Shown in pieces: positions 4,264-27,876 of a stretch of DNA of 64,000 nt. The translations under genes were made by a program, and so were the position numbers. Under the pieces are notes generated by a model, which saw nothing but the letters and a program-made list of their open reading frames with translations, did not search any database and was not told the DNA's origin. This DNA is from Caballeronia sp. (lineage in GTDB: Bacteria > Pseudomonadota > Gammaproteobacteria > Burkholderiales > Burkholderiaceae): assembly GCF_028292365.1 (NCBI RefSeq), contig NZ_JAQGMM010000173.1:1-64000 (forward strand). Direction: 5' to 3'. Every line of letters begins with the position of its first letter. Position 1 is the stretch's first letter.

Positions 4264-4270
4264 GCGGACC

Positions 4271-5191: not shown

Positions 5192-5207
5192 GAAGGCGAC
5201 CCGGCTG

Positions 5208-5251: not shown

Positions 5252-5334
5252 GCAAAAGAGAATACGGAGGAGTCCGGCTTAACGAACATTGAGAGCACTA
5301 AGAGCACTAAGAGCCGGACCCGAAGCGAACACGC

Positions 5335-6897: not shown

Positions 6898-6984
6898 AGG
6901 GGTGGGCTCCAGGCAGCTTGGTAAGAAAAACAGGTAAGCAAAGTCGCAATAAAAACGTCCGGCGCGTAGAGTGATCGGCAGCGA

Positions 6985-8898
6985 TCAGTACGCTCCGCCA
7001 ATTCGATGCTCGGCTACAAAATGGTCCGGGCCAACCATCACAAGCGGGGCGAACACCGGCTCGTCGTCGAGTGCACGGATCGGGCTTGGCATTTCATCGA
7101 CCGCAAGCACGCGCTTCGCGTGCCGCCGCGCCGGGTCGGCAACCGGCACCGCGCCCATGAGTTTTTTCGTGTAGGCATGGCGCGGTCCTTCGAACACCGC
7201 GCGACGCGGCCCGATCTCGACGATCTGGCCGAGATACATCACCGCGACACGATGACTGACCCGCTCGACCACTGCCATGTCATGCGAAATGAACAGATAA
7301 GCCACACCGAGTTCACGCTGCAGATCGAGCATCAGATTCACGATCTGCGCTTGCACGGACACGTCGAGCGCTGACACGGATTCGTCGGCGATCACCACTT
7401 TCGGGTTCAATGCGAGCGCACGGGCAATGGCTATGCGCTGGCGTTGTCCGCCAGAAAACTCGTGCGGATAACGGCGTGCGGCTTCGGCCGGCAGACCGAC
7501 CTTGTCCAGCAGCCATGCAACCCGCGCCTGCGCTTCGGCGCCTTGCGATACGCCGTGCACGAGCAGGGGCTCCATGATCGAGAAGCCGACAGTCAGACGC
7601 GGATTCAAGGACGCGAACGGGTCCTGGAAAATAAACTGGATGTCGCGGCGTAATGCCTGCAGGGCGGGACCTGTCAGCGAACTGATCTCGTTTCCGTTGA
7701 ACTCGATGGAGCCGCTCTGGCTTTCAACGAGTCGCAGCAGCGAGCGGCCCGTGGTGGATTTACCGCAGCCCGATTCACCCACCAGCGCGAGCGTTTCTCC
7801 CGGACGCAAGTCGAAACTGACACGCTCCACGGCATGCACGCGGCCTGTCACGCGGCCGAACAAACCTGTCCTGACCGGAAAACGCGTGACCAGATCACGC
7901 ACGCGAAGGATCGGTGGCGTGGTGTCGGCAATAGTCGGCTGCGCTTCGTGCGCGACCGCTGGCGCTGGAACCAGCGTTTCATCGGCGCCGGCCTGTTCCA
8001 CGGTGAGAATCGGAAACTTGGCAGGCGAGTCCGTGCCCGACATCGCACCCAGACGGGGAACCGCAGCCAGCAACGCCTTCGTATAGGGATGCGAAGGTGC
8101 TGCGAACAGTGCTCCGGACACGCCCTCCTCCACTTTCTCGCCGCGGTACATCACCAGCACACGGTCAGCCACCTCGGCGACCACGCCCATGTCATGCGTG
8201 ATAAAGATCACGCCCATGTTCATCTCGTCCTGCAAGCCGCGGATCAGTTGCAGGATCTGCGCCTGGATGGTGACGTCGAGCGCGGTGGTTGGTTCATCAG
8301 CGATCAGCAGCGCGGGCTTGCATGACAGTGCCATCGCAATCATCACGCGCTGGCGCATGCCGCCGGACAACTGGTGCGGAAACCGCGCTGCCACGCGGCG
8401 CGCTTCGGGAATTCGTACGAGGTCAAGCAGACGCAAGGTTTCTGCGCGGGCGGCGCCGCGGTTCTTGTGCTGATGCAGCGCGATTGCCTCGCCGATCTGA
8501 TCGCCCACGGTGAACACCGGGTTCAGCGATGTCATCGGTTCCTGGAAGATCATCGCAATGTCGGCGCCACGAATCGAACGCATCGTGCTGGACGAGGCGC
8601 GCGCGAGATCGAGCACGTGGCCGTCACGCCGCCGGAACGCGATGGATCCGCTGGCGATGCGCCCACCGCCGTGCTCGATCAGGCGCATCAGCGCAAGCGA
8701 CGTCACCGACTTGCCCGACCCCGATTCACCGACGATCGCCAGTGTTTCGCCACGATCGACCGTCAGCGACAGGTTGCGCACCGCATTGAAAGCTTTGTCG
8801 CCCTCACGGAACGCAATCGAAAGATCGTCAACGGCGAGCACGCATTGCGGCGGCAAGGTGTCGAGACGCGAGCGTGCAATGTGCGGTGAAATCGGCAC
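6985..8898 (-). CDS. gsiA: Peptide ABC transporter ATPase with two fused ATPase domains (GsiA type)
   Basis: A 637-residue cytoplasmic ATPase with two complete ABC domains, as in E. coli GsiA (623 residues). Domain 1 (about 18-270) has Walker A GESGSGKS, signature LSGGMRQR and Walker [13 protein letters not shown]. Domain 2 (about 330-600) has [16 protein letters not shown] and [11 protein letters not shown]. Both carry the C-terminal oligopeptide-transporter extension ([30 protein letters not shown]). The start is GTG at 8898 with AAGGA seven bases upstream. It powers GsiBCD. A fused ATPase with a single binding protein is the hallmark that separates GsiA systems from DppDF. Confidence 0.93.
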
Positions 8899-8980
8899 GA
8901 TGTTTTCCTTAAGGAATGAACGCGGCCCGGGCGATGATTCGCGCAGTGACCACGCGTGGAACCAGACAGATGAACAAACG

Positions 8981-9976
8981 TCAGCGATAAATCGCCGTAA
9001 CCGGTGCAGCGCCTACCCGCGCAAAACCGCGGTACATGCCCTCGGTGTTGAACGGCAACGTGACGTTGCCGAGCGCGTCGACGGCGATCAATCCACCACG
9101 GCCATTAATACGCGGCAGGCGTTTCATCACGACATCGGCTGCCGCTTCTTCCAGCGATACACCGCGATACGCCATTTGCGCCGCGACATCGTAAGCCGCG
9201 ACCATCCGCATGAACATCTCGCCGGAACCTGTGGTGGACACGGCACAGGTTGCATCGTCCGCATAGCAGCCTGCGCCGATCAACGGGGCGTCGCCCACCC
9301 GCCCGACTTGCTTGTTGGTGACACCGCCTGTCGATGTTGCGGCAGCAAGGTGTCCATGCTGATCGAGCGCGACCGCGCCAACCGTACCGAACTTGCGATT
9401 CGGATCGATGGGTTCGTGTGGCGTGGGATCTTCTCCATCGTCATCCGAAGAGGGGGCGGAAAGTGTCGCGCCGTCGTGATCGAGCATCACGCGTTGCTGG
9501 CCGCGTGCAAGCAGCCATTGCTTGTGACGGGCGTCGGTATGGAAGTACGAAGGGTCGACCAGTTCGAACCCCTGTGCTACCGCAAATGCTTCTGCGCCCG
9601 CGCCTGTGAACATGACATGTTCGCTTGCTTCGAGCACGCGGCGCGCGACCAGGACTGGATTGCGCACGCGCTTTACGCAGCAGATCGCGCCGGCTTCGAG
9701 CGTGCTGCCATCCATGATTGAAGCGTCCAGTTCATGCGTGCCGTCGGCCGTGAACACCGCGCCACGTCCCGCATTGAATAGCGGGTTGTCTTCGAGAAGA
9801 CGAACGGCTTCGCTCACGGCGTCGAGCGCGCTGCCGCCAGCGGCCAGCACACTCTGGCCTGCTGCCAGGATGTCATTCAGGCTTGTGTGATAGCGCTGCT
9901 CTGCTTCGGGCTCCATCAGCGTGCGCAAGATCGTGCCTGCGCCGCCGTGAACGGCAATGACTGCGGTCGAATTCAT
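8981..9976 (-). CDS. iaaA: Isoaspartyl peptidase/L-asparaginase (Ntn hydrolase)
   Basis: A 331-residue plant-type asparaginase/isoaspartyl dipeptidase. It is made as a precursor that cleaves itself before the nucleophilic threonine in GTVGAVALD (Thr198), giving alpha and beta chains; [10 protein letters not shown] near the N-terminus and [26 protein letters not shown] after the nucleophile are family hallmarks. It hydrolyses beta-aspartyl dipeptides and asparagine in the cytoplasm. The track start at 10090 is rejected: the ATG at 9976 overlaps the regulator stop as ATGA and matches the family start. In E. coli iaaA also precedes gsiABCD, which supports one peptide-import and degradation pathway. 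Confidence 0.94.
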
Positions 9977-10959
9977 TGTTTCGGTTTTCTGTTGGTTCGT
10001 GGGGTAGCGGATGTCCGGGGTTTGCTCGCAGCACGATTCGACGGGCCTGGCGTTGACGGGCTTTCGATGGACGGCGTCTTGGTCAGCCACGGCAACACGA
10101 ATTCAGTCATGTCCGCTGCCGCTTTCGCCGAGCGTTTAGTGCGATACGCAACCGCGTCGCAGAGTGCTTCGATCACGGCAAGCACCGCCGCGTCGGAGTT
10201 GGCCGCGAGCCGCCGTTCTGAGCGGACGCACAGCGTCAGGTCCGCGAACTGCCCGAGCGGCGAGTTGACGCTGTCGGTCAAGGCAAGTACGCGGGCACCC
10301 AGGCTCGCGGCGCGGCGTGCGAGCTGGATGGTGTCGTCTACATATCGCGGAAATGCAATGCCGATTACCAGATCGCCCTCGCCTGCGCTGAAGAGACGGC
10401 GCGCCGCGTGTGTCGGGCCGCCAACGAACGCAAGCGATTGCACGTTGTCGTGATAGGGCATCAGGCCATGCTCCATCAACCCGGCCAGAAACGCGCTTGC
10501 GCCTGCTCCGAGCACGAACACACGGCGCGCGGCAAGAATGGCGTCTACCGCCGCATCCGCGGCGGCGCCGTCAATGGCGCTGCGTGTCAACCGCAGATTG
10601 ACTTCGGCCTGTTCAAGCGACGCGCCGAGCAATTCGTCACCGCTCGCTGGCGATTCCTGCGCTGAACGCAAGCGTTCAACCGGTGCAAGCGTCGCTTCGA
10701 AACCACGCACCAGCGCGCTCCGAAATGCCGGGTAACCGTCGAAGCCGAGCGCCCGCGCAAAGCGGTTTGCAGTCGCCACGGAGGCGCCGACAGCATCCGC
10801 CAGTTCGTCGATACGCATGGTCGCCGCGCGGAACAAGTTGGCCTGCACATAGGCGCCCATGCGGCGATGGATCGGCGTCAGGCCCGGCGTTGCCGCTACG
10901 ATAAGCGCCGCGATACTCAGTCCGGACGGACCGGATACAACGGGCGGGTGATCTGCCAT
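9973..10959 (-). CDS. MurR/RpiR family transcriptional regulator
   Basis: A 328-residue regulator with an N-terminal RpiR helix-turn-helix (about 28-105; MRIDELADAVGASVATANRFARALGFDGYPAFR) and a C-terminal SIS domain (about 135-275; VFVLGAGASAFLAGL, GDLVIGIAFPRYVDDTIQLA). SIS domains usually bind phosphosugars or amino sugars. It is the first gene of the peptide operon and is coupled by ATGA to iaaA, so it very likely controls it. A dyad at 10995-11041 is the likely operator. A sugar-sensing domain on a peptide operon hints at cell-wall-derived peptides, but this is inference. Confidence 0.9.
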   Translation of the reverse strand: MADHPPVVSGPSGLSIAALIVAATPGLTPIHRRMGAYVQANLFRAATMRIDELADAVGASVATANRFARALGFDGYPAFRSALVRGFEATLAPVERLRSAQESPASGDELLGASLEQAEVNLRLTRSAIDGAAADAAVDAILAARRVFVLGAGASAFLAGLMEHGLMPYHDNVQSLAFVGGPTHAARRLFSAGEGDLVIGIAFPRYVDDTIQLARRAASLGARVLALTDSVNSPLGQFADLTLCVRSERRLAANSDAAVLAVIEALCDAVAYRTKRSAKAAADMTEFVLPWLTKTPSIESPSTPGPSNRAASKPRTSATPRTNRKPKQ

Positions 10960-10994
10960 GAAGAAGGATCAGCCAGAAGCCGAAGAAGTCGTGA

Positions 10995-11041
10995 TGAAAG
11001 TATATTTACATAAAATTCTTGTTGAAAAAAATGTATTTTCA
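10995..11041. promoter_or_regulatory. Candidate RpiR-type operator/promoter of the peptide operon
   Basis: The AT-rich region 36-82 bp upstream of the regulator ATG contains two inverted half-sites, TGAAAGTATATTT (10995-11007) and, on the other strand, TGAAAATACATTT (reading back from 11041), matching at 11 of 13 positions. TGAAA-type arms with an AT-rich centre fit known RpiR-family operators. It is the only such dyad in the leader, consistent with autoregulation. Confidence 0.5.
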
Positions 11042-11106
11042 TTAGGAGGGTTTCCCCTAGTGGATCGGGAGGGCGCAATACTCCGACGGTGGGGGACGAA
11101 GTTGCG

Positions 11107-11142
11107 ACGCTTCTAACCGCGTTATCACGCGGTTAGAAGCGT
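11107..11142. terminator. Perfect 15-bp inverted repeat, possible terminator
   Basis: Arms 11107-11121 and 11128-11142 are exact reverse complements (ACGCTTCTAACCGCG) around the loop TTATCA. It lies downstream of the small membrane-protein gene on the minus strand and before the regulator promoter, so a terminator is likely. It lacks a clear U tract on either strand, so a DNA-binding site is an alternative. Confidence 0.5.
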
Positions 11143-11336
11143 GCAGGATTTGCTGTTTCTGAGATGGAAGGGAGCGTCTCGGGGCGCGGAATGGATGCTA
11201 AGAAAATGGCGATACCTCTGAAAACAGTAGGCATCCTTATTATCATCTCGAGCGGCTTGAGTTGGCGAGATCAACACTCCATCGGCCGGCGCAGAGGTCT
11301 GCTCAAGCCGTGCCGAAAACAACGCCCGAATCCTGC

Positions 11337-11555
11337 TCAGTGCCGATGATGCATCCACCAATGCCGAGGATGGTCATCCATGCGCTCGCGCTTTTCTCCA
11401 GGCCACTTCGACTCGTTAATTAACAGGATAATTGCCACCAACGCCAGGCCGCCGAGGCCAACCAGGACGTTGATCAGATCGATGGCGGAACTGTGCAGGG
11501 TTAGTCGAGACGCGGTTCCAATAATGTCCATTACGGTATTCACAAACTCGTTCAT
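11337..11555 (-). CDS. Small single-pass membrane protein, unknown
   Basis: A 72-residue ORF starting MNEFVNTVMDIIG. The start at 11555 is chosen over 11579 because GGGAGGG lies 5-11 bases upstream. It has one clear hydrophobic helix around residues 29-50 (IDLINVLVGLGGLALVAIILLI) followed by a charged, histidine-rich tail ending MHHRH. It lies about 125 bp downstream of the MFS exporter gene on the same strand and could be co-transcribed. I do not recognise a family. The strong ribosome site and clean topology are the support. Confidence 0.55.
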   Translation of the reverse strand: MNEFVNTVMDIIGTASRLTLHSSAIDLINVLVGLGGLALVAIILLINESKWPGEKRERMDDHPRHWWMHHRH

Positions 11556-11681
11556 GATGCCCTCCCACGTCCTCTGCACCTACCTCTACATGATAGGTAA
11601 ACAGAGGCTTAAGAGTAAGTGGTCAGACTGCAAATTCCTGGCGCTTCCCGCCTCCTTCGACAAAGAACCACCAACCTCGCA

Positions 11682-13226
11682 TCAAACCACCGGACTGGTT
11701 TCCCGCACTTGTCCTCTCGGGCCGAACATCACGAAACTGGCCACGGCCAGCACCCATGCGCCGACACAGCCGTACAGCATGACCAGACCGAAGCCATGCA
11801 CGAGCGCTGCATGAACGGCCGCTCCTGACGAATCCAGCGACGCCAGCCCCGGAAAGCCGTGCTTCAGCGAGACAGCATCGCCTGCGGCTATTCGTTCAGC
11901 CAGGGATCTCAATTGCCGTCCATCGAACGACCCGGAAAACGTGCTCCTCAATTCCGACAAGATGCCTTCAATCAGGATGTACCCCATCAACGCGATATTG
12001 ATGGCCAGCGAGATGAGCCTCGCACTCATGTCGATGCCCGACGCCATGCCTGCGCGCGTGCTCGGCACCGAGCTGGTTGTCGTATTGGTCACAGGCGTAT
12101 TGGTCAGTCCCAATCCGATGCCGGCCAACAGGCAGCCGGGCAGCATGGTCAGCCAACTGGCATGCTCCGCGCCGCCGCCGGCCCTCATCAGGATGAAGCC
12201 CGTACCAATGGTGAACAGGCCAAGCGGAATGACGACACCCGGGTGATATCGAAGTGAAAGGCGTTCGGCCAGCGGCGGTATGACCAGGGTAGGAAGCGTA
12301 TAAGCCAGAAGTGCTGATCCGGCAGTCACGCTGTTGTATCCGAGGCCGCTCTGGAAATAAATCGGCAGATAAATCATGAATGGCCAGAAACTGAAATTCA
12401 TGCCCATCGATCCAAATAGCGCCCCCGAAAAATTGCGTATCCGGAACACGGAAAAATCGAACATCGGATGAGCGTTGATCTTTTCCGCGAATATGAAAAG
12501 TATAAAGCTGATCGCAGACGCGGTAATGATCCCGATACCCGTAATACTCGTAAAACCAAGATCGGACCCTTGCGTGATGAAATACGCCAGACCGAAAACC
12601 GACAGCGAAAGCGTGACCATTCCCAGCAGGTCCAGCTTTTTTGCCTGTGGATCTCTGGATTCCTGAACCCCCTTGAACACAAGAATCACGGTCACTATCG
12701 CGATCAGAACGTGGATGAGAAACACCCACTTCCAATCCGACACCGCGACAATTATTCCGCCCACAATCGGCCCAAAACCCAGGCCAATGCCAAATATGAT
12801 GCCCCAGGCGCCAAAGGCTCGGGTACGGGCTTGTCCTTCCCGGAACTGATGCGATAAAACTGCCACCTGGCAAATCAGCATTGCCCCGCCGGCCATGCCT
12901 TGAAGAAAGCGGCTCACGATTAACACGGAAACGCTCTGCGCGAATCCGCATATCAGTGAGGTGATCGCGAACAGCACAATGGCGATCATGAAAATACGCT
13001 TCCTGCCAAACCGGTCCGCAAGCGTTCCGGTCGCCATCAGAACTGTCGTGCAGGCGATGGTGTACGCATTCATGATCCATTGCATTTCCTTGAAACTACC
13101 CCGCAATACTATTTCCAGGGTTGGCAATATCACAGGCACGCTGGAAATTTCCAGGCCGAACATGAGCGAAGCCAGACAAATGCCAGCCAATGCGATGGCG
13201 TTTTTGTTGGGATGAGTGAGTGTCAT
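11682..13226 (-). CDS. MFS drug/metabolite exporter, DHA2 (EmrB/QacA) type
   Basis: A 514-residue inner-membrane proton antiporter with about 14 predicted helices. Family marks are the first helix region LASLMFGLEISSVPVILPTL, the loop motif GTLADRFGRKRIFM (motif A) and GMAGGAMLICQVAVL in helix 4-5. The ORF track begins at a TTG at 13235; the ATG at 13226 is more likely. Exporters of this class remove drugs, dyes or fatty-acid-like compounds, but the substrate cannot be read here. It is divergent from the LysR gene at 13512, which probably regulates it through the dyad at 13459-13485. No EmrA-type adaptor is next to it. Confidence 0.88.
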   Translation of the reverse strand: MTLTHPNKNAIALAGICLASLMFGLEISSVPVILPTLEIVLRGSFKEMQWIMNAYTIACTTVLMATGTLADRFGRKRIFMIAIVLFAITSLICGFAQSVSVLIVSRFLQGMAGGAMLICQVAVLSHQFREGQARTRAFGAWGIIFGIGLGFGPIVGGIIVAVSDWKWVFLIHVLIAIVTVILVFKGVQESRDPQAKKLDLLGMVTLSLSVFGLAYFITQGSDLGFTSITGIGIITASAISFILFIFAEKINAHPMFDFSVFRIRNFSGALFGSMGMNFSFWPFMIYLPIYFQSGLGYNSVTAGSALLAYTLPTLVIPPLAERLSLRYHPGVVIPLGLFTIGTGFILMRAGGGAEHASWLTMLPGCLLAGIGLGLTNTPVTNTTTSSVPSTRAGMASGIDMSARLISLAINIALMGYILIEGILSELRSTFSGSFDGRQLRSLAERIAAGDAVSLKHGFPGLASLDSSGAAVHAALVHGFGLVMLYGCVGAWVLAVASFVMFGPRGQVRETSPVV

Positions 13227-16831: not shown

Positions 16832-17000
16832 GCAGTGTGAGCCGTGGCGAGGTGTCGATCCCCGCTAGCGGATATCAGCACTCACTTTTAAGCGTAAAAA
16901 CCCTAAAGTTAAAGTGGTTAACTGCCGTTATGTCCTTGTAACGCGAGAAACGACAAGCCGTTCTCGCGTCACGTTCCAGATCGGAGAAAGGACACAATCA

Positions 17001-18560
17001 ATGCGAAATAACCAGCCCGTCTCGCAGCAGGAGTACGATTTTCCGGCATCAGACATGCTCGTTTCGGCCACGGATCTTTCAGGCAACATCAAATACTGCA
17101 ATCCCGCCTTTATCGAAGTCTCCGGCTATTCGAGAGAAGAACTCATCGGCCAGCCGCACAATCTGATCCGTCATCCCGACATGCCGGGCGAGGCTTTCGG
17201 CGACATGTGGGCGACGATCCAGGAAGGCCGCCCCTGGACTGCTCTCGTCAAGAACCGCCGCAAGAATGGCGACTACTACTGGGTTCGCGCGAACGTGACA
17301 CCCGTTATCGAGCATGGCAAGGCAGTCGGTTTTCTTAGCGTGCGCGTGAAGCCGGGCCGCGACGAAGTGGCGAGTGCATCCGACTTGTATGCGCGGATGC
17401 GCGCCGGTGCAATGGGTGCGCTGCGTCTCAAACAAGGCGCGCTTGTACGCACGGGACTCGCCGGCAAGCTTGCGGAACTGGCGCGCATGCCGGTCGCGTC
17501 GCGCATTGCAATCGGCTATGCAGCCGGGCCACTGGCGGTGCTCGCGACCGGATTGATCGCGTACCAGGGACTTCCGCCGCTACCCTTGTGGATCGCCTTT
17601 GGCGTAAGCGCGTTGGTGGGCGCGATCGGCTGGGCGACCGTTTCACATCACGTCGGCGCGCCCGTACGCATCATGTCCCGATTCGCGACGCGCATGGCAG
17701 CCGGCGATCTGACGGCGGCGATGGAAACCGGCGCTCGCGACGACCTCGGCGACGTCCAGCGCGCGCTGAATCAGCTCAAGGCGAACCTGTCCGCCATCGT
17801 CCTCGATGTCCGTGGGCAGATCGGCGGGATGATGGATGCAACGCGGGAAATTTCGAGCGGCAACATGGATCTGTCGCGCCGGACCGAGCTGCAGGCAGCA
17901 TCGCTGCAACAAACCGCCGCGACGATGGATCAGCTGACCGCCACGGTAAAGGGCAACGCGGACGCGAGCGTACGCGCGCTGGATCTGGTGAAGGACGCGC
18001 AGTCCGCAGCCAGCGACGGCGGCAAGATTGCTATCCAGGTCGAACAGACCATGGCCGGCATCCATACGGCTTCGCAGCGTATTGCGGACATCATCGGCGT
18101 GATCGACGGCATTGCGTTCCAGACGAATATCCTCGCATTGAACGCGGCGGTGGAAGCAGCACGTGCGGGTGAAGCGGGCCGCTCGTTCGCAGTGGTCGCA
18201 ACCGAAGTGCGCAACCTGGCGCAACGCTGCGCGGCGTCGGCGAAGGAGATCAAGGCGGTGGTGGAAACGAGCGTGGCGCAGATTGCGGAAGGGACCGACC
18301 TGGTGTCACGCACGACCAGCCAGATGCGTGCAATCGATGCCGCCGTGCTGCGGGTCGCGACGATCATCGGCGAGGTGGCGAATGCGAGCAGTGAGCAGGC
18401 CGAGGGCATTCGTCAAGTGAACCAGGCGGTCGCGCATCTGGATGGCTCGACGCAGCAGAACGCCGCACTGGTCGAGCAGGCTGCGGCCACTGCGCAGCGG
18501 CTGGCGGAACGAGCGGACGTGCTCGATGACGCGGTACGTTTATTCACGGTTGGGCATTGA
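17001..18560 (+). CDS. aer: Aer-type PAS energy-taxis receptor
   Basis: A 519-residue inner-membrane chemoreceptor. The PAS domain (about 10-115) closely follows E. coli Aer, with [23 protein letters not shown] and [15 protein letters not shown], the FAD-binding region. Two hydrophobic stretches around 165-215 form a membrane hairpin, followed by HAMP-like sequence and the signalling domain, whose tip [26 protein letters not shown] is diagnostic. It should sense redox state or oxygen through FAD and signal to CheA/CheW. The start at 17001 is preferred to 16914: GGAGAAAGGA lies upstream and homology begins there. Monocistronic. Confidence 0.93.
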
Positions 18561-18605: not shown

Positions 18606-19523
18606 TTAATCAGCGTCCAAATCAGACTCGGCATCCAGCGCCAGCACGGTCACGCCCACATCTATCCGATGTGACCCGCCGCCGAGAATCATCCCGCGCA
18701 GCAGGGACACATCGCTATAGTCCCGGCCCGTCGCAAGCGTCACATGTTCGAGATCGGCGAGCACATCGTTCGTCGGATCAAGATCGATCCATCCGCTGCC
18801 GGGGCAAAACACCGACACCCACGCATGCGATGCATCTGCGCCAATCAGCTTCTCCTGCCCTGGCGCGGGATCGTTACGCAGATATCCGCTTACGTACCGT
18901 GCCGGCATCCCGAGCGCGCGCATGCATCCGATCATCACCTGTGCGAAATCCTGACAGACGCCATGGCGCATTTCAAACGCGCGATGGGCAGGCGTGTCAT
19001 ACGACGTAGCCAAAGGCTTGTACTTGAAGTCGCCATGAATCCGGTGCATCAGGTCGATCGCCCCTTCCGCCAGCGGCTTGCCCACAGGAAAACTTTTTAG
19101 TGCGTAATCCCGCAAATCCTGCCCGAGACTGATATTGGGCGACGCAAAGCAAAACTCGGTCTCAGGGCGAAACGGCGAGTGAGCGCTAAAACGCATGCCC
19201 TCCGCGACCTCGTCCCATGCCGGCGTGGTCGCCGGATCGAGCGAGGCCCATCGCGGCGTCAGTTCAACGGTCGTTTCACTGACCATCTGCAATGACCGGT
19301 GCGGTGACTCGAGCGAAAAATACAGCACGTCGTTACCGAAGGTATCCACGCGATGATTGATGTACGGCGGCTTCGGCTCAATGCTTTCGGTGTGTGAGAT
19401 CACCCGCTGCCATGCGCAGTTCTGTGGCCGGATAGTCGCGAGATGCTGAGCCGTCTCTACGTACGTTGAATAGCGATAGGTTGTCCGGTGCGAGACCCAC
19501 AACACGGTTTTCGGAATCTTCAC
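18606..19523 (-). CDS. Transglutaminase-like protein with bacterial N-terminal domain
   Basis: A 305-residue protein with the bacterial transglutaminase-like N-terminal beta domain (about 8-90; VSHRTTYRYSTYVETAQHLATIRP) and a transglutaminase-fold core. The triad is visible: Cys190 in RHGVCQDFAQVM, His233 in ADASHAWVSVF and Asp249 in GWIDLDPTND. Such enzymes form or cleave amide bonds; most in this branch are thought to act as peptidases or amide transferases on unknown peptides. No signal peptide. Its ATG overlaps the stop of the ATP-grasp/alpha-E gene by four bases, so the two are translationally coupled. Function in the island is inferred. Confidence 0.9.
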   Translation of the reverse strand: MKIPKTVLWVSHRTTYRYSTYVETAQHLATIRPQNCAWQRVISHTESIEPKPPYINHRVDTFGNDVLYFSLESPHRSLQMVSETTVELTPRWASLDPATTPAWDEVAEGMRFSAHSPFRPETEFCFASPNISLGQDLRDYALKSFPVGKPLAEGAIDLMHRIHGDFKYKPLATSYDTPAHRAFEMRHGVCQDFAQVMIGCMRALGMPARYVSGYLRNDPAPGQEKLIGADASHAWVSVFCPGSGWIDLDPTNDVLADLEHVTLATGRDYSDVSLLRGMILGGGSHRIDVGVTVLALDAESDLDAD

Positions 19524-22093
19524 GACGACACCTGCAATGCCTGCGTATTCGCGTGGCTGAAGTAACGCGCGCTGATTTCATGCGCGGCGGCGCTCACATG
19601 ATCGCCGAGCGCCTCGCAAGCCTGGATGAGTTCGCCATAGTTGCCGTCTTCGTCGGTCGTGCACAGTTGCTCGAGCCCTCGCAGCGACTTCAGCAACAGC
19701 GTCGCGTCGCTGAACGCACCGTGGTTCGTGTTGCCGGCCGCAACCGAAATCTCGTTTAGCTTCGTGCATAAGCGCGAATACACGCCGTAGAGGCCGCGCG
19801 GGTTGGTCGGCTCGACCACCAGCAGGTCAATCAGTGCGGGCACTTCGAAACGCCCCGGGTAAAGCGATCGATACGTGAGCGTGCTGTCGAACAATTGCAG
19901 CAGCAGGTCGAACCCGGCTGGCGTGGTCATCTGACCATGTTCGGCGGCCACGCGCAGGAAGGTGGTCATGGTCCATACACGTTCGATGTGCCGTCCCGCG
20001 AACACCAGCTTCCACGCTTCGTCGCGCGTCATGCGGTCGCCTTGGGCACCGCTGATGGCGAGCAGTTGTGTCGACAATGTTTCAAGCGTTCGCGTGAGCT
20101 TCACGCGGTCATAACGCTCCACGCCCGGCCCCGGCTTGAACTGCTGGATGGCGTCGCGGAAATCGTTGCGCGCGGCCAGGATCGTGCGCCAGTGATCGGT
20201 CGAAAGACGCCCGCGAATCTCGCTGCTCGCGCGCACCTGGCTCGCGAGGTTCTGGCCAATACTCGCCGCTGCGCCATTCTCGCCAATGTTGGCGACCAGC
20301 AAACGTTCGAGCCCACGCGCCGTGTGCCCCTGCAGCGGCGTGCCGGGGGGTAGCAGGCCACATTGCCACGCGAGGTCCACCATGGTCTCCAGCATGCCCT
20401 CGGAGTCGTTGCTGTCGATCGACGAGAGGATCACGCGCAGCAAGCGCACGTTGTTCTCGGCGCGCTCTCCGTATCGTCCGGCCCAGAAGAGGTTTTCTGC
20501 GGCGCGGCTCGATACAGTCCGATGCTTGCGTGCAAGGTCCGCTGGTTTGATCGGCGTGGGGAGCAGCGAGAAGCTCGAACCCGGCTTGCTCGACAGCACC
20601 CAGGTGTCGACGCTGCTGCTGCCGTATTGCATCGATACCGACGGTTGGCGCTCCGCCCCGAGCCGCGTGAATCCGCCCGGCATCACAGACCAGCCGCCAT
20701 CGATGTTCGCAATTGCATAAACGCGCAGCACCGACGGGCGTCCGGTCAACGTGTTGTCTTCATAACGCGGCGCGTGCGAACTCGGGAACAGGTTCTGGAT
20801 GGTGAACGCGTCCGGCATGGCGTCGATCCGCGTGCGCCAGCCGGCCAGCGGTTGCAGGCCGTCGCCGAAACCGCGCGGGCCGCCGCCGTTAAGTGGCAAG
20901 CCCGGCCAGGTGGGAATCACGAACGCTTTGTCCAGACGTGCCAGCACCGCTTCACGCGCCGCTTCTTCACCGCACCACCAGGTGGGTACGCTGGCGAGCT
21001 CCAGCGGCTCGTTCAGCAGCGCGCGCGAGATGGCCGGCAGGAAACCATGCAGCGCCGGCGATTCGACAAAACCCGAGCCGGGCACGTTGGACACCATGAC
21101 GTTGCCGGCCCTCATCACCTGCAACAGGCCGGGCACGCCGATGGTCGAATCAGCGCGCAATTCGACCGGATCGCAGAATGCATCGTCGAGGCGACGCATC
21201 AATACATGAACCCGTTCCAGTCCGGCGAATGTCTTGAGGAACAACATGTCGTCGCGTACGGTCAGGTCCTTGCCTTCGACCAGCGTGACGCCGAGATAGC
21301 GAGCAAGGAACGCATGCTCGAAGAAGGTTTCGCTGAAAGGGCCGGGGGTCAGCAGCGCGATGTGCGGCGAGCCTTCGCCCGACATCATCGCCCGGCCGCC
21401 CTGGACCAATGCTGCGATCAGTTGCGAGTAGAACGGAGCGAGCCTTTGAACTTTCATCGACCGGAACGGCTCGGCGAATACATCCGAGACGATCAACCGG
21501 TTTTCCAGCGCATAACCGAGTCCGGAGGGCGCTTCCGTCCGGTGCGCCATCACGGTCCATGCGCCGTTGGGGGCACGCGTCAGGTCCACCGCAACAAGCT
21601 GCAGGTACTGCGCGCCGGGCGGCACGAAGCCCTTCACCGAGCGTAGATACCCTGGATGTCCGAACACGAGCGCGGGCGGCAGCAGACCATCATGCAGCAG
21701 CGTCTGCGGCCCGTAGATATCGGCGACTATGGCGTTCAGCAACTTCGCGCGCTGTGTCACCGCGCGCTCGATCACCGACCACTCGCCTTCTTCGATAAGA
21801 AACGGCAGCAGGTCCAGCGCCCACGGACGAGGCTCGCCCTTGTCCGCATAGACGTTGTAGCTGATGTCGTTGTCGCGGACCTGCTGTGCGATGGACGCGG
21901 TTGCCCGGTCGAGGCCGGCTATGCCGTCGTCGCCGAGCAGCTCGAAGAATTGCCGCCAGGGCGCGCGCAACTGGCCCGACGCGTCGCGCAGTTCGTCCCA
22001 ATGGCCCTCCCGGACCGGTACCGCGCGAAGGCGTGACGACACACTCGCGCGGTTCGTGATTGCTTCAAATGGAAGCGTGGATTGGAAGGCCAA
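19520..22093 (-). CDS. Circularly permuted ATP-grasp plus alpha-E domain fusion
   Basis: An 857-residue protein joining two domains that are separate proteins in many bacteria. Residues about 70-480 form the circularly permuted type-2 ATP-grasp amidoligase domain (GYLRSVKGFVPPGAQYLQL, NVPGSGFVESPALHGFLP, VPTWWCGEEAAREAVLARLD). Residues about 520-850 form the helical alpha-E domain (SSRAAENLFWAGRYGERAENNVRLLRVI). ATP-grasp domains of this type are predicted to ligate amino acids or peptides; no product is known to me. The start at 22093 is a TTG with no obvious ribosome site, and a GTG further in is possible. It lies between two transglutaminase-like genes. Confidence 0.9.
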   Translation of the reverse strand: MAFQSTLPFEAITNRASVSSRLRAVPVREGHWDELRDASGQLRAPWRQFFELLGDDGIAGLDRATASIAQQVRDNDISYNVYADKGEPRPWALDLLPFLIEEGEWSVIERAVTQRAKLLNAIVADIYGPQTLLHDGLLPPALVFGHPGYLRSVKGFVPPGAQYLQLVAVDLTRAPNGAWTVMAHRTEAPSGLGYALENRLIVSDVFAEPFRSMKVQRLAPFYSQLIAALVQGGRAMMSGEGSPHIALLTPGPFSETFFEHAFLARYLGVTLVEGKDLTVRDDMLFLKTFAGLERVHVLMRRLDDAFCDPVELRADSTIGVPGLLQVMRAGNVMVSNVPGSGFVESPALHGFLPAISRALLNEPLELASVPTWWCGEEAAREAVLARLDKAFVIPTWPGLPLNGGGPRGFGDGLQPLAGWRTRIDAMPDAFTIQNLFPSSHAPRYEDNTLTGRPSVLRVYAIANIDGGWSVMPGGFTRLGAERQPSVSMQYGSSSVDTWVLSSKPGSSFSLLPTPIKPADLARKHRTVSSRAAENLFWAGRYGERAENNVRLLRVILSSIDSNDSEGMLETMVDLAWQCGLLPPGTPLQGHTARGLERLLVANIGENGAAASIGQNLASQVRASSEIRGRLSTDHWRTILAARNDFRDAIQQFKPGPGVERYDRVKLTRTLETLSTQLLAISGAQGDRMTRDEAWKLVFAGRHIERVWTMTTFLRVAAEHGQMTTPAGFDLLLQLFDSTLTYRSLYPGRFEVPALIDLLVVEPTNPRGLYGVYSRLCTKLNEISVAAGNTNHGAFSDATLLLKSLRGLEQLCTTDEDGNYGELIQACEALGDHVSAAAHEISARYFSHANTQALQVSS

Positions 22094-22117
22094 ATTGAGC
22101 AGTTATCGTTGATGAGG

Positions 22118-25100
22118 CTACCGTCGGCGCAAATCGAGCGTGAAAGGAAACTCCAGGCTGCGTTTCGGTTCTTCCACGACCATCCGTCCAGGCGTATGGC
22201 CGATTCTGAAAAAGCGCGCGCGCCGCCGGCTTTCCGCCTCGTATGCGTTGACCGGATAGGTCACGTAATTGCGGCCACCCGGATGGGCTACATGATACCG
22301 GCATCCGCCTATGGACCGGTTGCTCCAGGTGTCAACTATGTCAAAGGTGAGCGGTGCATCCACGCCAATCGACGGATGCAGCGCCGTCGGCTGCGACCAT
22401 GCCCGAAAGCGCACGCCGGCCACATGCTCGCTCACCCGCCCGGTGGGTTGCAACGGCAATGGCACGCCGTTGACCGTCACCACATGGCGGTTGTCGTTGA
22501 GCCCAAGCACCCGCACTTCCATCCGTTCCACCGACGAATCCACGTAGCGCACCGTCCCGCCCGGCGACCCCTGCTCGCCCATCACATGCCACGGCTCCAG
22601 CGCGCTGCGCACCGTCAGTTCAATGCCGTTCGTCTGGACCGCGCCCACCAGCGGGAAACGGAACTCGAAATGCGGCGCGAACCACGCGGTATCGAACGCA
22701 TAACCGGCTTCATTGAGGTCCGCGATGACGTCGTGGAAATCCATTTCGATGAACGTGCCGAGCAGGAAACGGTCATGCAGTTCCGTGCCCCAGCGCGTGA
22801 GGCGCGTGGTGTAGGGCTTGTCCCAGAACCGCGCGACCAGCGCCCGCAACAGCAATTGCTGGACGAGGCTCATACGCGCGTGCGGCGGCATTTCGAAGCC
22901 CCGAAGTTCAAGCAGGCCGAGGCGGCCGGTCGGGCCATCGGGGGAATACAGCTTGTCGATGCAGAATTCCGCGCGGTGCGTGTTGCCCGTCACATCGATC
23001 AGCAGGTTGCGCAATGTCCGGTCGATCAGCCACGGCGGCAGCAACGCGCTATCGCGCCCGCCCAGGCGTTCCAGTTGATGCTCGATCTCCTTGAACGCGA
23101 TCTCCAGCTCGTAGAGCTGGTCGTTGCGCGCTTCATCAACACGCGGCGCCTGGCTCGTGGGTCCGAGGAACAATCCCGAGAACAGGTACGACATCGACGG
23201 ATGGTTGATGAAGTACGCAATCAGGCTTGCAAGCAGGTCGGGACGCCGCAGGAACGGGCTGTCGGCAGGCGTCGCGCCGCCAAGCACGAAGTGATTGCCG
23301 CCGCCCGTGCCGGTGTGCCGGCCGTCGGTCATGAACTTCTCGGTGCTGAGATAGCTTTCGTGCGCCGACTGATACAGGAACTCGGTGTGATCGACGAGTT
23401 GATCCCAACTCGACGCCGGATGAATGTTCACCTCGATCACGCCCGGGTCCGGCGTCACTTGCAGCATCTTGAGACGGGCATCGCGTGGCGGTGGATAACC
23501 TTCGATCACCACCTTCATGCGCAGATCAGCTGCGGTTGCTTCGATAGCCGCGAGCAGGTCGAGGTAGTCATCGAGTTCGGTCAGCGGCGGCATGAACACA
23601 TGCAGCAGGCTCTTGCCGCTTCCAAACGATTTCGCTTCAACGTCCGGTCCTGCCGCACGCGCCGGATCTCGGGCTTCAACGCATAGTGCCGTACGCCTGA
23701 TCCACGACGCGGACTCGCCGCGTGACGGCTCGCGGGTTGAGGTTGTGGGCCGTTGCCCCGTGCTCGCTGTTGCCGCTGTTCCCGCTTCCAAACCCTCGCC
23801 CTTTCTTCCTTCGATACTCTCGCCAGGAACCGCGCCGCCGCGATATTGCATGCGCAATTCCATCGCCTGGCGCAACGGCGCCGGCGGTCCGAACGGGTCG
23901 TGTGGATGTTGATGCGGATAATCTCCCGCACTCACCCACGGCAGCGATTCAAGGGGTAGCCGATACCCCATCGGCGAGTCGCCGGGAATCAGGTACATGC
24001 GGCCATCGCGGAAAAACCAGGGGCCGCTGACCCATGTTGGCGCTTGCATGGGAACATCGCGCTCGCGCGCAATAGGCAGCACATAGCCCGTTACCTGCGA
24101 CAAGCCTGCGTCGAACACACGACGCAAGCGCATGCGTTCCATCTCGTCATCGAGTTCAGATTCGAACGGGTCCACGTTCACCGGCAAGCGGCGTTCACGC
24201 CACAGGTAATAGAACGTGTCTTCGTAACCGGGCTGGATATACGCAGGATCAAGCGAGACCTTGTCCGCCAGATGTTCGATAAACCGCCGTGCATCTTCTG
24301 CTGTGTACTGGCCGGGATCGCGCTCATCGGCAAAGAGCTTCGGGTCTTCCCAGATCAGCTCGCCATCCGCGCGCCAGAACAGCGACATGGCCCAGCGCGG
24401 CAACTGCTCGCCCGGATACCACTTGCCTTGACCGAGATGCAGGAAGCCGCCCACGCCATAACGCGCACGCAACTTGTCCATCAGCGAGACGGCATAACCA
24501 CGCTTCGTCGGACCCAGTGCGTCGGTGTTCCATTCCGCTGCATCGCGGTCGCTCACGGCGACGAACGTGGGCTCGCCGCCCATCGTCAGGCGCACGTCCA
24601 TGTCGGTCAGTTGCTGGTCGACCTGCGCGCCCATCTTCTGAACCGCGGTCCACACTTCTTCCGTGTACGGTTTCGTCACGCGTGGCGTTTCGAGCACCCG
24701 CTGCACCTGCATGATGTGCTCGAACTCGACTTCGCTTTCATCGACAGCGCCAAAGATCGGCGCGGCGCTCCCAGGCTCAGGCGTACAGGCGACGGGGATA
24801 TGCCCCTCGCCGGCCAGCAGCCCGGAGGTCGGGTCGAGTCCGATCCAGCCCGCGCCGGGCAGGAAGACCTCGCACCACGCGTGCAGGTCAGTGAAGTCGA
24901 CTTCGGTGCCACTCGGGCCATCGAGGGACTTCTGGTCGGGGGCAAGCTGGATCAGGTAACCCGACACGAAACGCGCGGCCAGCCCGAGCTGACGCAAGGT
25001 TTCGACAAGCAACCAGCCTGTGTCGCGACATGATCCCAACGCTTTGTCGAGCGTCTCCTCCGGCGTCTGAACGCCGGGTTCCATGCGAATCACGTAGCCA

Positions 25101-25567
25101 ATGTCCTGCTGCAGCCGCTGGTTCAACGCGACCAGGAAATCGGCCGTGGTTTGAGGCGTTTTGTCGATGCTCTCGACTAATTTGGCCAGCAGCGGCGTTG
25201 CTTCGCGCTTGATCAAATACGGCGCAAGTTCAGCCGCGAGTTCGGGTTCGTACGCGAACGGGAATTTCTCGGCGTAGGGCTCGAGAAAGAAGTCGAAGGG
25301 GTTGTACACCGCCATCTCGGCGACCAGGTCGACTGTGATCTTGAATTCCCGCGTTTTCTCGGGGAACACAAGCCGCGCCTGATAGTTCGCGAACGCGTCC
25401 TGCTGCCAGTTGATGAAGTGTTCGGCTGGCTCGACCCGCATCGAATAGGAAATGATCGGCGTACGGCAATGCGGCGCGGGCCGCAGGCGCACGACCTGCG
25501 GTGAAAGGCCGACGAGGCGGTCATAACGGTAGTGCGTGACATGGTTCAACGCGACACGGATTGACAC
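22118..25567 (-). CDS. Large transglutaminase-like protein with DUF2126 region
   Basis: A 1149-residue protein. The bacterial transglutaminase-like N-terminal domain (SIRVALNHVTHYRYDRLVGLSPQVVRLRP) precedes a core with Cys180 in LGSCRDTGWLL, His229 in FTDLHAWCEVF and Asp245 in GWIGLDPTSG. The remaining 850 residues are the DUF2126 region (MGGEPTFVAVSDRD, LGQGKWYPGEQLPRWA, TGGGNHFVLGGATPADSPFLRRPDLL), which has been linked to glutamine-synthetase/ATP-grasp-like amidoligases. A low-complexity Ser/Thr/Arg linker lies around 570-640. The GTG at 25567 has AGGAG seven bases upstream, better than the TTG at 25594. First gene of its operon. Confidence 0.9.
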   Translation of the reverse strand: MSIRVALNHVTHYRYDRLVGLSPQVVRLRPAPHCRTPIISYSMRVEPAEHFINWQQDAFANYQARLVFPEKTREFKITVDLVAEMAVYNPFDFFLEPYAEKFPFAYEPELAAELAPYLIKREATPLLAKLVESIDKTPQTTADFLVALNQRLQQDIGYVIRMEPGVQTPEETLDKALGSCRDTGWLLVETLRQLGLAARFVSGYLIQLAPDQKSLDGPSGTEVDFTDLHAWCEVFLPGAGWIGLDPTSGLLAGEGHIPVACTPEPGSAAPIFGAVDESEVEFEHIMQVQRVLETPRVTKPYTEEVWTAVQKMGAQVDQQLTDMDVRLTMGGEPTFVAVSDRDAAEWNTDALGPTKRGYAVSLMDKLRARYGVGGFLHLGQGKWYPGEQLPRWAMSLFWRADGELIWEDPKLFADERDPGQYTAEDARRFIEHLADKVSLDPAYIQPGYEDTFYYLWRERRLPVNVDPFESELDDEMERMRLRRVFDAGLSQVTGYVLPIARERDVPMQAPTWVSGPWFFRDGRMYLIPGDSPMGYRLPLESLPWVSAGDYPHQHPHDPFGPPAPLRQAMELRMQYRGGAVPGESIEGRKGEGLEAGTAATASTGQRPTTSTREPSRGESASWIRRTALCVEARDPARAAGPDVEAKSFGSGKSLLHVFMPPLTELDDYLDLLAAIEATAADLRMKVVIEGYPPPRDARLKMLQVTPDPGVIEVNIHPASSWDQLVDHTEFLYQSAHESYLSTEKFMTDGRHTGTGGGNHFVLGGATPADSPFLRRPDLLASLIAYFINHPSMSYLFSGLFLGPTSQAPRVDEARNDQLYELEIAFKEIEHQLERLGGRDSALLPPWLIDRTLRNLLIDVTGNTHRAEFCIDKLYSPDGPTGRLGLLELRGFEMPPHARMSLVQQLLLRALVARFWDKPYTTRLTRWGTELHDRFLLGTFIEMDFHDVIADLNEAGYAFDTAWFAPHFEFRFPLVGAVQTNGIELTVRSALEPWHVMGEQGSPGGTVRYVDSSVERMEVRVLGLNDNRHVVTVNGVPLPLQPTGRVSEHVAGVRFRAWSQPTALHPSIGVDAPLTFDIVDTWSNRSIGGCRYHVAHPGGRNYVTYPVNAYEAESRRRARFFRIGHTPGRMVVEEPKRSLEFPFTLDLRRR

Positions 25568-25838
25568 ACCTGACTCCTGGACGAATTTTGGCAATCTTCA
25601 AAAGCAAACTCCATGCCGTTTGGCCGAACGCACCATCGGGCAAGGCTGCGGGGAACTTCCATGCACGCAATACTGCGGTTAAGCCATTTCAAATGTCCGT
25701 TGATGCACCAAACTAGCGCGCAAAACGCCCTTTGCGTCTGGGCCAGACCGTTCCTGCGGCGGCACGTGGCTTGCTTGATAGGCACCATCGAGCCGGCATC
25801 ACGCCACCACGCCCTATATTCCAGCCTATCTCTTCAAT
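25568..25838. promoter_or_regulatory. Divergent promoter region of the transglutaminase island
   Basis: A 271-bp gap separates the divergent starts of the large transglutaminase-like gene and the metallopeptidase gene, so promoters for both arms must lie here. ORFs that cross it (25546-25788 minus, 25613-25933 plus) are shadows of this region without motifs. I see no convincing dyad or sigma site. Confidence 0.45.
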
Positions 25839-26987
25839 ATGAAAACATTCCATTGCGGCCGTTGCCAGCATCACGTTTTTTTCGAGAACGTGAAATGCGA
25901 ATCCTGCGCGGCATTGCTGGGCTTCGTACCTGAATTGTCGGAAGTTTGCGCGTTCGAACCGGCCGGCGACACGACAAATAACCCGGCGGGTAACACGCTA
26001 TGGCGCGCCCTGAATCCATCGGCTAATGGCGCGCAGTTTCGGCAGTGCAATAACTACGCGCTGGAGAATGTCTGCAACTGGATGATCCCGGCCGACTCGC
26101 CGGACGTGTTATGCCCGGCGTGCAGCCTGACGCAGACCATCCCCAATCTCACTCAGCCAAACAACCGGGTCTACTGGTACAAGCTGGAGACGGCCAAGCG
26201 GCGCTTGCTGTTTGCGCTCTCGTCACTCGGCCTGAACACGGACTCGCGGCGGACCAATCCCGAAGCCGGTTTGCAGTTCGAGTTTCTTGAAGACGGCAAC
26301 ATGGGGGCGAAGGTCCTGACCGGTCACGACAACGGCCTCATCACGATGAACATAGCCGAGGCCGATGACGCCCTGCGCGAACGCATGCGCTCGGATATGC
26401 ATGAGCCGTACCGCACCCTGCTCGGGCACTTCCGGCATGAGATAGGCCACTATTATTTCGATCGACTCGTGGCGAATACACCGTGGGAAGAGCCGTTTCG
26501 CGAGATGTTCGGCGATGAGCGGGTCGACTACGCCCAGTCACTGCAGGCGCATTACGACAACGGACCGCCCGCCGACTGGGACCAGTCCTATGTGAGCGCG
26601 TACGCCACCACGCATCCGTGGGAAGACTGGGCCGAGACGTGGGCACATTACCTGCATATCGTCGATACGGTGGACACCGCTGCGGCCTGCGGATTCAAAC
26701 TCGATCCGAAGTCCGACAACGAACCGTCGCTCACCGAGATCGAGCCGGTCGAGAACACCAGCTTCGATGAGCTCATGAAGCAATGGTTTCCGCTCATGTA
26801 TGCATTGAACAGCTTGAACCGAAGCCTGGGACTAGCCGATGCGTACCCGTTCACGCTCTCGCCGAAGGTCGTCGCCAAGCTGCGTTTCGTGCATAAGGTG
26901 ATTGCGAGCGTGGGTGCTCGGCAGCAGGTGAAGGATGACGTTCAGCAGGAAACCAGGCAAGACCAGCCGGCGGCGGCAGCCGGTTGA
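25839..26987 (+). CDS. Zinc-ribbon metallopeptidase-like protein
   Basis: A 382-residue protein with an N-terminal zinc ribbon (Cys6, Cys9, Cys20 and Cys23 in CGRC...CESC), a second cysteine cluster (CNNYALENVCNW ... VLCPACS) and a metallopeptidase core with the HExxH zinc motif in RHEIGHYYFDRL. A further likely ligand region is DWAETWAHYLHI. This matches the putative zinc-binding metallopeptidase family often found beside transglutaminase and alpha-E genes. Cytoplasmic by lack of a signal. It is divergent from the large transglutaminase gene and 85 bp before the third one. No ribosome binding site is obvious before the ATG. It may process the island's peptide; inference. Confidence 0.87.
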   Translation: MKTFHCGRCQHHVFFENVKCESCAALLGFVPELSEVCAFEPAGDTTNNPAGNTLWRALNPSANGAQFRQCNNYALENVCNWMIPADSPDVLCPACSLTQTIPNLTQPNNRVYWYKLETAKRRLLFALSSLGLNTDSRRTNPEAGLQFEFLEDGNMGAKVLTGHDNGLITMNIAEADDALRERMRSDMHEPYRTLLGHFRHEIGHYYFDRLVANTPWEEPFREMFGDERVDYAQSLQAHYDNGPPADWDQSYVSAYATTHPWEDWAETWAHYLHIVDTVDTAAACGFKLDPKSDNEPSLTEIEPVENTSFDELMKQWFPLMYALNSLNRSLGLADAYPFTLSPKVVAKLRFVHKVIASVGARQQVKDDVQQETRQDQPAAAAG

Positions 26988-27072
26988 TCATGGCTTAATC
27001 AGGAGTTCGATGTATTTGACTCCTGCCGTTCACGCCTCAACCCAAGCGCCCCAACCTAAAAAGGTCAGTCCG

Positions 27073-27876
27073 ATGAAGCTCCGCGTTGGTTACGAACTGG
27101 TCTATGAATGCGTGCAGCCGACACCGATGCTGCTGATGTTGAACATGCACGCGTCGCGTGCGCAGAGCATCCTTGTCCCGGACATCCTGAGGGTCAACCC
27201 GCCGGTGCCCTACTCGCAGTATCACGATTCATTCGGCAATCTGTGCAGCCGGCTGGTTGCACCGCAAGGCTGGCTCACGCTGTCCACTGAGGGATTGATC
27301 GACGTGCCGCCTTATCCGGAGTTGCCGGAGCCAAACGGTTATCAGCATGCCGTTGAAGAGCTGCCCGACGAGTGCATGCAGTTCCTCCTCGGCAGCCGCT
27401 ACTGCGAGACCGACCTTCTGTCCGATGCCGCCTGGCAGATGTTCGGCCATACGCCGCTCGGACGTGCCCGGGTGCAGGCCATTTGCGATTTTGTTCATCG
27501 GCACATTCGCTTTGACTATAACTGCGCGCGTCCGACCAAGACGGCGTTCGAAGCGTATCGGGAAGGTGTGGGCGTGTGCCGGGACTTTGCGCATCTCGCG
27601 GTCGCGTTATGCCGCGCGATGAATATTCCGGCACGCTACTGCACGGGGTATATCAGCGATATCGGTCTGCCGCCGCCCTACGCACCCATGGATTTCTGCG
27701 CCTGGATCGAGGTGTACCTGGGCAATACGTGGCAGACATTCGATCCGCGCAACAATGCGCCGCGCACCGGACGTGTGTTGATGGCTCGAGGCCGCGACGC
27801 CGCCGATGTCGCATTGAGCAACACCTTCGGAACGACCACGCTGGTCAGGTTCAGCGTGGTCTGCGAGCCTCAGTGA
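27073..27876 (+). CDS. Third transglutaminase-like protein, triad His replaced by Cys
   Basis: A 267-residue transglutaminase-fold protein. The start at 27073 (MKLRVGYELVYECVQPTPMLL) is preferred to 26935 because AAAGGT lies upstream and the earlier part overlaps the metallopeptidase gene. The catalytic cysteine is Cys169 in GVGVCRDFAHLAVAL and the aspartate is Asp224 in WQTFDPRNN, but the position of the triad histidine reads MDFCAWIEVYL, giving Cys209 where the two neighbours have SHAW or LHAW. It may therefore be inactive, use other chemistry or serve as a binding partner. It shares the plus-strand arm with the metallopeptidase. Confidence 0.88.
   Translation: MKLRVGYELVYECVQPTPMLLMLNMHASRAQSILVPDILRVNPPVPYSQYHDSFGNLCSRLVAPQGWLTLSTEGLIDVPPYPELPEPNGYQHAVEELPDECMQFLLGSRYCETDLLSDAAWQMFGHTPLGRARVQAICDFVHRHIRFDYNCARPTKTAFEAYREGVGVCRDFAHLAVALCRAMNIPARYCTGYISDIGLPPPYAPMDFCAWIEVYLGNTWQTFDPRNNAPRTGRVLMARGRDAADVALSNTFGTTTLVRFSVVCEPQ

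Follow-up and report, generated by a model that had tools for sequence, protein, structure and literature searches.

A divergent island of ATP-grasp/Alpha-E, transglutaminase-fold, DUF2126, and metallopeptidase genes, very probably under NtrC/sigma-54 control

RESULTS

Gene content, gene starts, and active sites

We analyzed a stretch of 64,000 nucleotides from Caballeronia sp., here called the window, in which positions 18606-27876 hold five genes in two divergent arms (Table 1). ORF and Pfam analysis confirmed this layout and the domains, both of which had been described in an earlier note on the same DNA, and the Pfam scores of all assigned domains were far beyond the cut-offs. The minus arm reads transglutaminase (TGase)-DUF2126, ATP-grasp/Alpha-E, and TGase, and the plus arm reads zinc-ribbon Peptidase_Mx and TGase-fold protein (TG5). 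The overlap between the ATP-grasp and TG1 genes, previously given as ATGA, is in fact GTGA. None of the five proteins matched an NCBIfam family, and no signal peptides were evident by eye.

Table 1. Genes and candidate regulatory sites of the island (window positions)
Feature	Position	Strand	Domains and remarks
TG1, transglutaminase-like	18606..19523	-	Bact_transglu_N + Transglut_core; intact Cys-His-Asp triad
Fused circularly permuted ATP-grasp (type 2; CP_ATPgrasp_2) + Alpha-E	19520..22093	-	DUF2126-linked sub-family
Transglutaminase + DUF2126 (putative GS-like amidoligase)	22118..25567	-	Bact_transglu_N + Transglut_core + DUF2126; longest ORF to 25594
Metallopeptidase: zinc ribbon + Peptidase_Mx	25839..26987	+	HExxH intact
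TG5, transglutaminase fold	27073..27876	+	Transglut_core; catalytic His replaced (Cys255); longest ORF from 26935
Sigma-54 (-24/-12) promoter candidate CGGCATGGAGTTTGCT, DUF2126 arm	25603..25618	-	36-51 bp before GTG start
NtrC-box-like palindrome TGCACCAAACTAGCGCG between both promoters	25704..25720	+	
Sigma-54 (-24/-12) promoter candidate CGGCACGTGGCTTGCT, peptidase arm	25760..25775	+	

The DUF2126 gene very probably starts at GTG 25567 and not at TTG 25594, because a conserved AGGAG precedes the GTG. The start of TG5 is probably ATG 27073, because alignments with homologues begin only at residue 41-47 of the long ORF; with this start, the plus-arm genes do not overlap. The catalytic triads of two TGase domains were intact and invariant (C190/H233/D249 and C189/H238/D254), and at least 97% of the homologues aligned to TG1 and to the TGase domain in the DUF2126 protein retained Cys-His-Asp. 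In Peptidase_Mx, H200-E201-x-x-H204 and eight Cys residues were retained among homologues. The catalytic residues reported in the earlier note are thus present in two TGase domains and in the peptidase but not in TG5, which has Cys-Cys-Asp in place of the Cys-His-Asp triad.

A PAS-HAMP chemoreceptor gene (16914-18560) runs convergent with the last gene of the island, and 46 bp separate the two gene ends. Long plus-strand frames lie antisense to the core genes (20363-21646, 22082-23686, and 24044-25033); we ascribed them to high G+C and did not take them as genes. A minus-strand run 8 kb from the island (2300-10959) looks like a peptide-use operon, with a peptidase S58, parts of a dipeptide ABC transporter, an Asparaginase_2 of the isoaspartyl peptidase type, and a SIS-domain protein; it was not seen as a conserved neighbor of the island.

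Predicted ligases

The earlier note had found DUF2126 and treated it as a mere region. The domain is present, but Pfam describes it as a putative amidoligase, and its AF2 model (pLDDT 73.7, pTM 0.75) weakly resembles glutamine synthetase (GS). Foldseek placed glutamine synthetases and GmaS in the top 12 PDB ranks for this model, at E values of 0.017-0.4 with none reaching 0.001; the best GS match is weak (E value = 0.017, TM-score about 0.3 of the target), and the DUF2126 part gave no match to PDB sequences. We regard this modelled resemblance as suggestive and not as proof. If it holds, the island would encode two ligases, an ATP-grasp and a GS-like DUF2126 protein, which we consider rather probable. 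The amide-bond formation proposed earlier for the ATP-grasp stands as a prediction, and the putative GS-like ligase, which had not been recognized, would be added to it.

The ATP-grasp domain has a PDB relative, 3n6x (E value = 9e-61), and its fusion to Alpha-E, already pointed out in the earlier note, is conserved in the DUF2126-linked sub-family. The same genome carries, on another contig, a complete Anbu operon (ATP-grasp, Alpha-E, TGase, and Anbu; 7288-11807 of locus L003, G000:C592:9000-27681), and for signature comparison 19520-22093 of the window was paired with L003:10296-11807. No Anbu was found in the window. Among the sequences inspected there were two signature types: the Anbu type carries A-D-D-K and G-G-T-K-D-T-W, whereas the DUF2126-linked type carries E-[STA] (E-S/T-x-x-L replacing A-D-D-K) and has lost both Anbu-type lysines. 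R-x-D and N residues are common to the two. The window's ATP-grasp has E-S-P and S-V-D-T-W where the Anbu type has D-D-K and T-K-D-T-W, and, where covered, 77 sequences from Burkholderiales and about another 30 from Pseudomonadota carried the DUF2126-linked signature. In Y. bercovieri, the ATP-grasp of the Anbu operon liberates phosphate from ATP (PMC6376114); because the DUF2126-linked type is without two lysines that are invariant in the Anbu type, this measured activity is not transferable to it. The Alpha-E domain (19523-20533) gave a confident all-helical AlphaFold model (pLDDT 86.6) that had no relative among PDB folds (best E value, 0.27) and that possibly represents a fold not yet solved.

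Conservation and distribution

We scanned genome contigs with the DUF2126 protein and analyzed the best 80 of 586 confirmed relatives, nearly all from Burkholderiales. Nearly all of these loci that had enough flank kept the order of the core (TGase-DUF2126, fused ATP-grasp/Alpha-E, TGase), with a few insertions. Co-occurrence was conserved for this core, but all five genes occur together only in the window lineage: among the best 80 of 586 relatives, 32 loci had the divergent peptidase arm (Paraburkholderia, Caballeronia, Ralstonia soli, and the window), and of these only three, namely the window, L004, and L005, also had TG5 with it. The divergent peptidase/DUF2126 arrangement was found also in other Pseudomonadota families (L162-L164). 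The core recurs across Burkholderiales and Pseudomonadota, and in only part of the lineages is the fused ligase accompanied by the peptidase arm. Two further Peptidase_Mx homologues were observed: a second full homologue in the same genome (G000:C343:4546-5268) and one in the same genus (L165:7028-8233) with a strong sigma-54-like site upstream.

In an evenly drawn sample of 249 Pseudomonadota genomes, DUF2126 was present in 75, Alpha-E in 145, and Peptidase_Mx in 47. All 75 DUF2126 genomes had Alpha-E, compared with 70 of the 174 others (Fisher test, P value = 6e-23, which is nominal since genomes are not independent). An ATP-grasp gene came directly after DUF2126 in 27 of the 30 loci fetched across the phylum. 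With all three families in one neighborhood, the island belongs with the ATP-grasp/Alpha-E/transglutaminase amidoligase systems.

Sigma-54 promoters and NtrC box

The intergenic region between the arms (25595-25838 by the longest ORF) contains one sigma-54-type site per direction. These upstream sites are of the GG-N10-GC, -24/-12 type expected for a member of the sigma-54/NtrC regulon; the sigma-54 consensus given by the B. cenocepacia authors is GGcacg-N4-ttGC (PMC5491218). Since the sites in the window alone would prove little, we examined their conservation across loci, using a score with a maximum of 15.5 and weights that were fixed manually before control genes were compared. In 61 of 81 loci (from the best 80 of 586 relatives), the 160 bp preceding the start of DUF2126 contained a site scoring at least 13; this score was reached in 13 of 417 control regions, taken upstream of other genes at the same loci (3%), and in 2.75% of upstream regions in which dinucleotide blocks were shuffled. 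Positive loci were found in 20 of 25 genus/MAG groups from the same best 80 of 586, and their spacer sequences differed. The search turned up no sigma-54 site immediately ahead of DUF2126 for Caballeronia or for four loci of Paraburkholderia. In Burkholderia and Ideonella, DUF2126 sits within a longer operon and not at its head, and at most of these loci a strong sigma-54 site preceded the operon's first gene (AGGCACGTTCCTTGC[AGT] and TGGTGCG[GC]TTGTTGCT).

On the other side, every one of the 32 loci that carry the peptidase arm had a site scoring at least 12.5 within 300 bp upstream of the peptidase gene and facing it. Given that 6.7% of control genes reach this level at 160 bp, the strength of the peptidase-side site lies in its conservation at similar distances and in aligned position. 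A palindrome with at most three mismatches to the NtrC consensus TGCACCANNNTGGTGCA lay between the promoters in 21 of the 32 loci, and in most Paraburkholderia its counterpart reads TGCGCC-N4/5-TTGGTGCR. The window's NtrC-box-like palindrome has three mismatches, about 3.6 such matches are expected by chance in 64 kb, and it is persuasive only through its conservation. Loose sigma-54 matching (3 mismatches) across the window gave no more hits than chance, and strict sigma-54 and strict NtrC patterns gave 2 and 1 matches in the whole genome, no better than reversed-pattern controls. One sigma-54 pattern was composed after the sites had been seen, and its P value is not used as evidence. The Anbu operon of the same genome has a perfect sigma-54 site, TGGCACGCCTGTTGCT, 40-55 bp upstream. 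The promoters, like gene content, conservation, and active-site states, are read here from sequence comparison.

Published expression data on matching operons

In an ntrC mutant of B. cenocepacia H111, four genes were down: I35_5080 (DUF404/407) 8.2-fold, I35_5081 (DUF403) 9.4-fold, I35_5082 (TGase) 9.4-fold, and I35_5083 (large TGase protein) 6.0-fold; all four are common targets of sigma-54 and NtrC (PMC5491218). Locus L060, from a Bcc relative, has ATP-grasp, Alpha-E, TGase, and TGase-DUF2126 genes in the same order as I35_5080-83, so that the large TGase protein I35_5083 would be the DUF2126 protein by gene order, as read from this relative and not from H111. P. putida PP_2686-2688 were up 11- to 37-fold on nitrogen limitation (PMC7801951). 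A 2025 sigma-54 survey lists the proteasome-type protease COG3484 among enriched targets, and its main text makes no mention of DUF2126, Alpha-E, or ATP-grasp COGs (PMC12316311). In marine metagenomes, Alpha-E, CP-ATP-grasp, and TGase domains correlate with urea-use domains (PMC3597751). Taken with the conserved sites, we consider it very likely that the island is regulated by nitrogen limitation via NtrC and sigma-54.

TG5 and its relatives

At the catalytic His position, TG5 has Cys in the window, L004, and L005, and ten more close homologues have Ala or Ser there, so that 13 of 13 are without His; nearly all distant homologues retain it. Eight of the 13 close homologues adjoin Anbu, an N-formylglutamate amidohydrolase relative (FGase), or both, with tight Anbu-FGase-TG5 runs in L161 (5745-8065) and L167 (133-2582), and in L159 TG5 is contained in an ATP-grasp/Alpha-E/TGase/FGase/TG5/DUF2126 run. 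These neighbors indicate that TG5 belongs to a wider Anbu/DUF2126 system. The His-less family also stands near Anbu and/or an FGase relative, in overlapping or closely spaced runs, in L157-L160, L166, and L169. Without a complete Cys-His-Asp triad, TG5 departs from active transglutaminases and cysteine peptidases and is probably not an ordinary transglutaminase.

Searches for a substrate peptide and for conserved neighbors

The earlier note had also suggested a peptide product encoded by a nearby gene. Scanning for ORFs of 18-110 amino acids around the core in 81 loci (from the best 80 of 586 relatives), we found no conserved small ORF beyond shadow ORFs, and this suggestion was not borne out; a ribosomal substrate peptide is therefore unlikely, and the scan gave no precursor peptide gene of the kind that marks a RiPP cluster. 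Recurrent clusters of small ORFs were judged to be shadows of a stand-alone Alpha-E gene, a ComEC-like gene, and other long genes. The one neighboring gene to recur widely was the sister set's stand-alone Alpha-E (10 groups), and no transporter, exporter, catabolic oxidoreductase, or dedicated regulator was conserved.

DISCUSSION

Proposed function

The island is best explained, with somewhat better than even confidence on our part, as a cytoplasmic, nitrogen-limitation-induced module that forms and breaks amide bonds for nitrogen salvage or remodelling from peptides or proteins. Its regulation is well supported; we infer its chemistry, that is, the ligase activity and substrates, as well as the cooperation of the two arms and the purpose. 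Under nitrogen limitation, phosphorylated NtrC would bind at the box amid the divergent intergenic region and act on the two opposed sigma-54 promoters, and both arms would be made together. The two predicted ATP-dependent ligases (ATP-grasp/Alpha-E and the GS-like DUF2126-TGase) would link a carboxylate to an amino acid, a peptide, or an amine, and the two intact TGase-fold cysteine enzymes and the zinc peptidase would transfer or hydrolyze the product, with the peptidase taking the hydrolase place held by the proteasome-like Anbu in the sister operon. When the cell is starved of nitrogen, the module would serve to salvage, or to remodel, nitrogen from peptides or proteins. It might salvage unusual amides, tag proteins, or build a nitrogen-rich conjugate; given its regulation, the GS-like fold, and the FGase relatives, we place salvage ahead of the other two, and we propose it tentatively.

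A more specific form of this explanation, which we consider doubtful, is a catabolic route of the gamma-glutamylation type. The GS-like and ATP-grasp ligases would join an amine or peptide to glutamate, and the TGase-fold hydrolases and the peptidase would free ammonia and glutamate, so that an unusual nitrogen source could be used. In PuuA and GmaS, activation is by joining to glutamate. The NtrC/sigma-54 control, the GS and GmaS fold matches of DUF2126, the FGase relatives adjoining the TG5 family, and the metagenomic association with urea use (PMC3597751) would all fit such a route, but no catabolic oxidoreductase or transporter is conserved nearby, and two ligases and three TGase folds exceed its needs.

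Pupylation-like protein tagging is unlikely. By analogy, the ligases would attach a small tag to cellular proteins under nitrogen starvation, and the TGase-fold and peptidase enzymes would strip the tag off again or target proteins to Anbu or to another protease. This follows the protein-tagging hypothesis of Iyer et al. 2009, as it is cited in PMC6376114 and PMC5666114; the sister operon does encode the proteasome homologue Anbu, and control by nitrogen starvation would suit protein recycling. The small-ORF scan of 81 loci, however, gave no small conserved tag protein nearby, and the Anbu-operon proteins of Y. bercovieri did not associate, nor did Anbu show peptidase activity (PMC6376114). 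Less likely again is a unifying idea in which the island and the Anbu operon would be parallel NtrC-controlled arms of one unrecognized conjugation-and-recycling system: GS-like and ATP-grasp ligases would conjugate, the hydrolase slot would be filled interchangeably by Anbu or Peptidase_Mx, and the His-less TGase-fold protein, with or without the FGase-type amidohydrolase, would serve as a shared adaptor or substrate-binding partner.

A gene cluster that makes a peptide natural product for secretion, along the lines of the earlier note's peptide product, now appears improbable. Two predicted amide ligases together with several peptidase folds would suit it, but there is no conserved precursor ORF, exporter, or dedicated regulator, and no evident signal peptide; a very wide occurrence, in 75 of the 249 Pseudomonadota genomes, and the control by general nitrogen regulation also speak against it. 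An anti-phage defense island is very improbable, since the sole point in its favor is that multi-enzyme islands with unassigned roles sometimes prove defensive, while PADLOC gave no match for any of the five proteins and the island is stably conserved in Paraburkholderia and relatives.

Significance

The type of system, predicted in 2009, and the link of Anbu to nitrogen starvation were already known. In the literature surveyed, to which the 2009 prediction paper did not belong, we met no description of three features: the two-way arrangement of sigma-54/NtrC sites at the DUF2126 island, a His-less TGase that partners Anbu/FGase, and the signatures that separate the ATP-grasp sub-families. We claim no priority for them. 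The function of ATP-grasp/Alpha-E/transglutaminase systems, Anbu included, has been a standing question since at least 2008-2009. For an amide-forming and amide-breaking module of the kind we favor, the conserved two-way switch points to nitrogen starvation as the condition in which to search for a substrate and suggests that both arms act together, and the ATP-grasp signature split and the His-less TGase tied to Anbu or an FGase relative single out specific proteins for assay.

Comparison with known systems

The GS-like amidoligases GlnA and GmaS were the top fold matches to the DUF2126 model; unlike them, the DUF2126 protein has extra domains and a fused N-terminal TGase, and its DUF2126 part has no PDB sequence match. 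M. tuberculosis Rv2566-Rv2569c, which we take to encode TGase-DUF2126, fused ATP-grasp/Alpha-E, Peptidase_Mx, and TGase, would share the two divergent arms of the island. Mycobacteria, to our knowledge, are without sigma-54, and control of that locus must therefore differ from that of the island. B. cenocepacia H111 I35_5080-83 (BCAM1233-1236) is like the island in its TGase-DUF2126 protein (by the L060 order) and in its activation by NtrC and sigma-54, but both set types are joined there in one operon, and no peptidase arm was seen in Burkholderia loci of this kind. The island is a sister of the Anbu operon and thus of a kind of system already known: the Anbu operon (P. putida PP_2685-2688, Y. 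bercovieri) has the same ATP-grasp, Alpha-E, and transglutaminase-like families and similar control by sigma-54 and nitrogen limitation. In contrast to it, the island is without Anbu and without a stand-alone Alpha-E, its ATP-grasp is fused to Alpha-E and belongs to a distinct sub-family (E-S/T for D-D-K, with T-K lost), and it has the additional TGase-DUF2126 protein and metallopeptidase.
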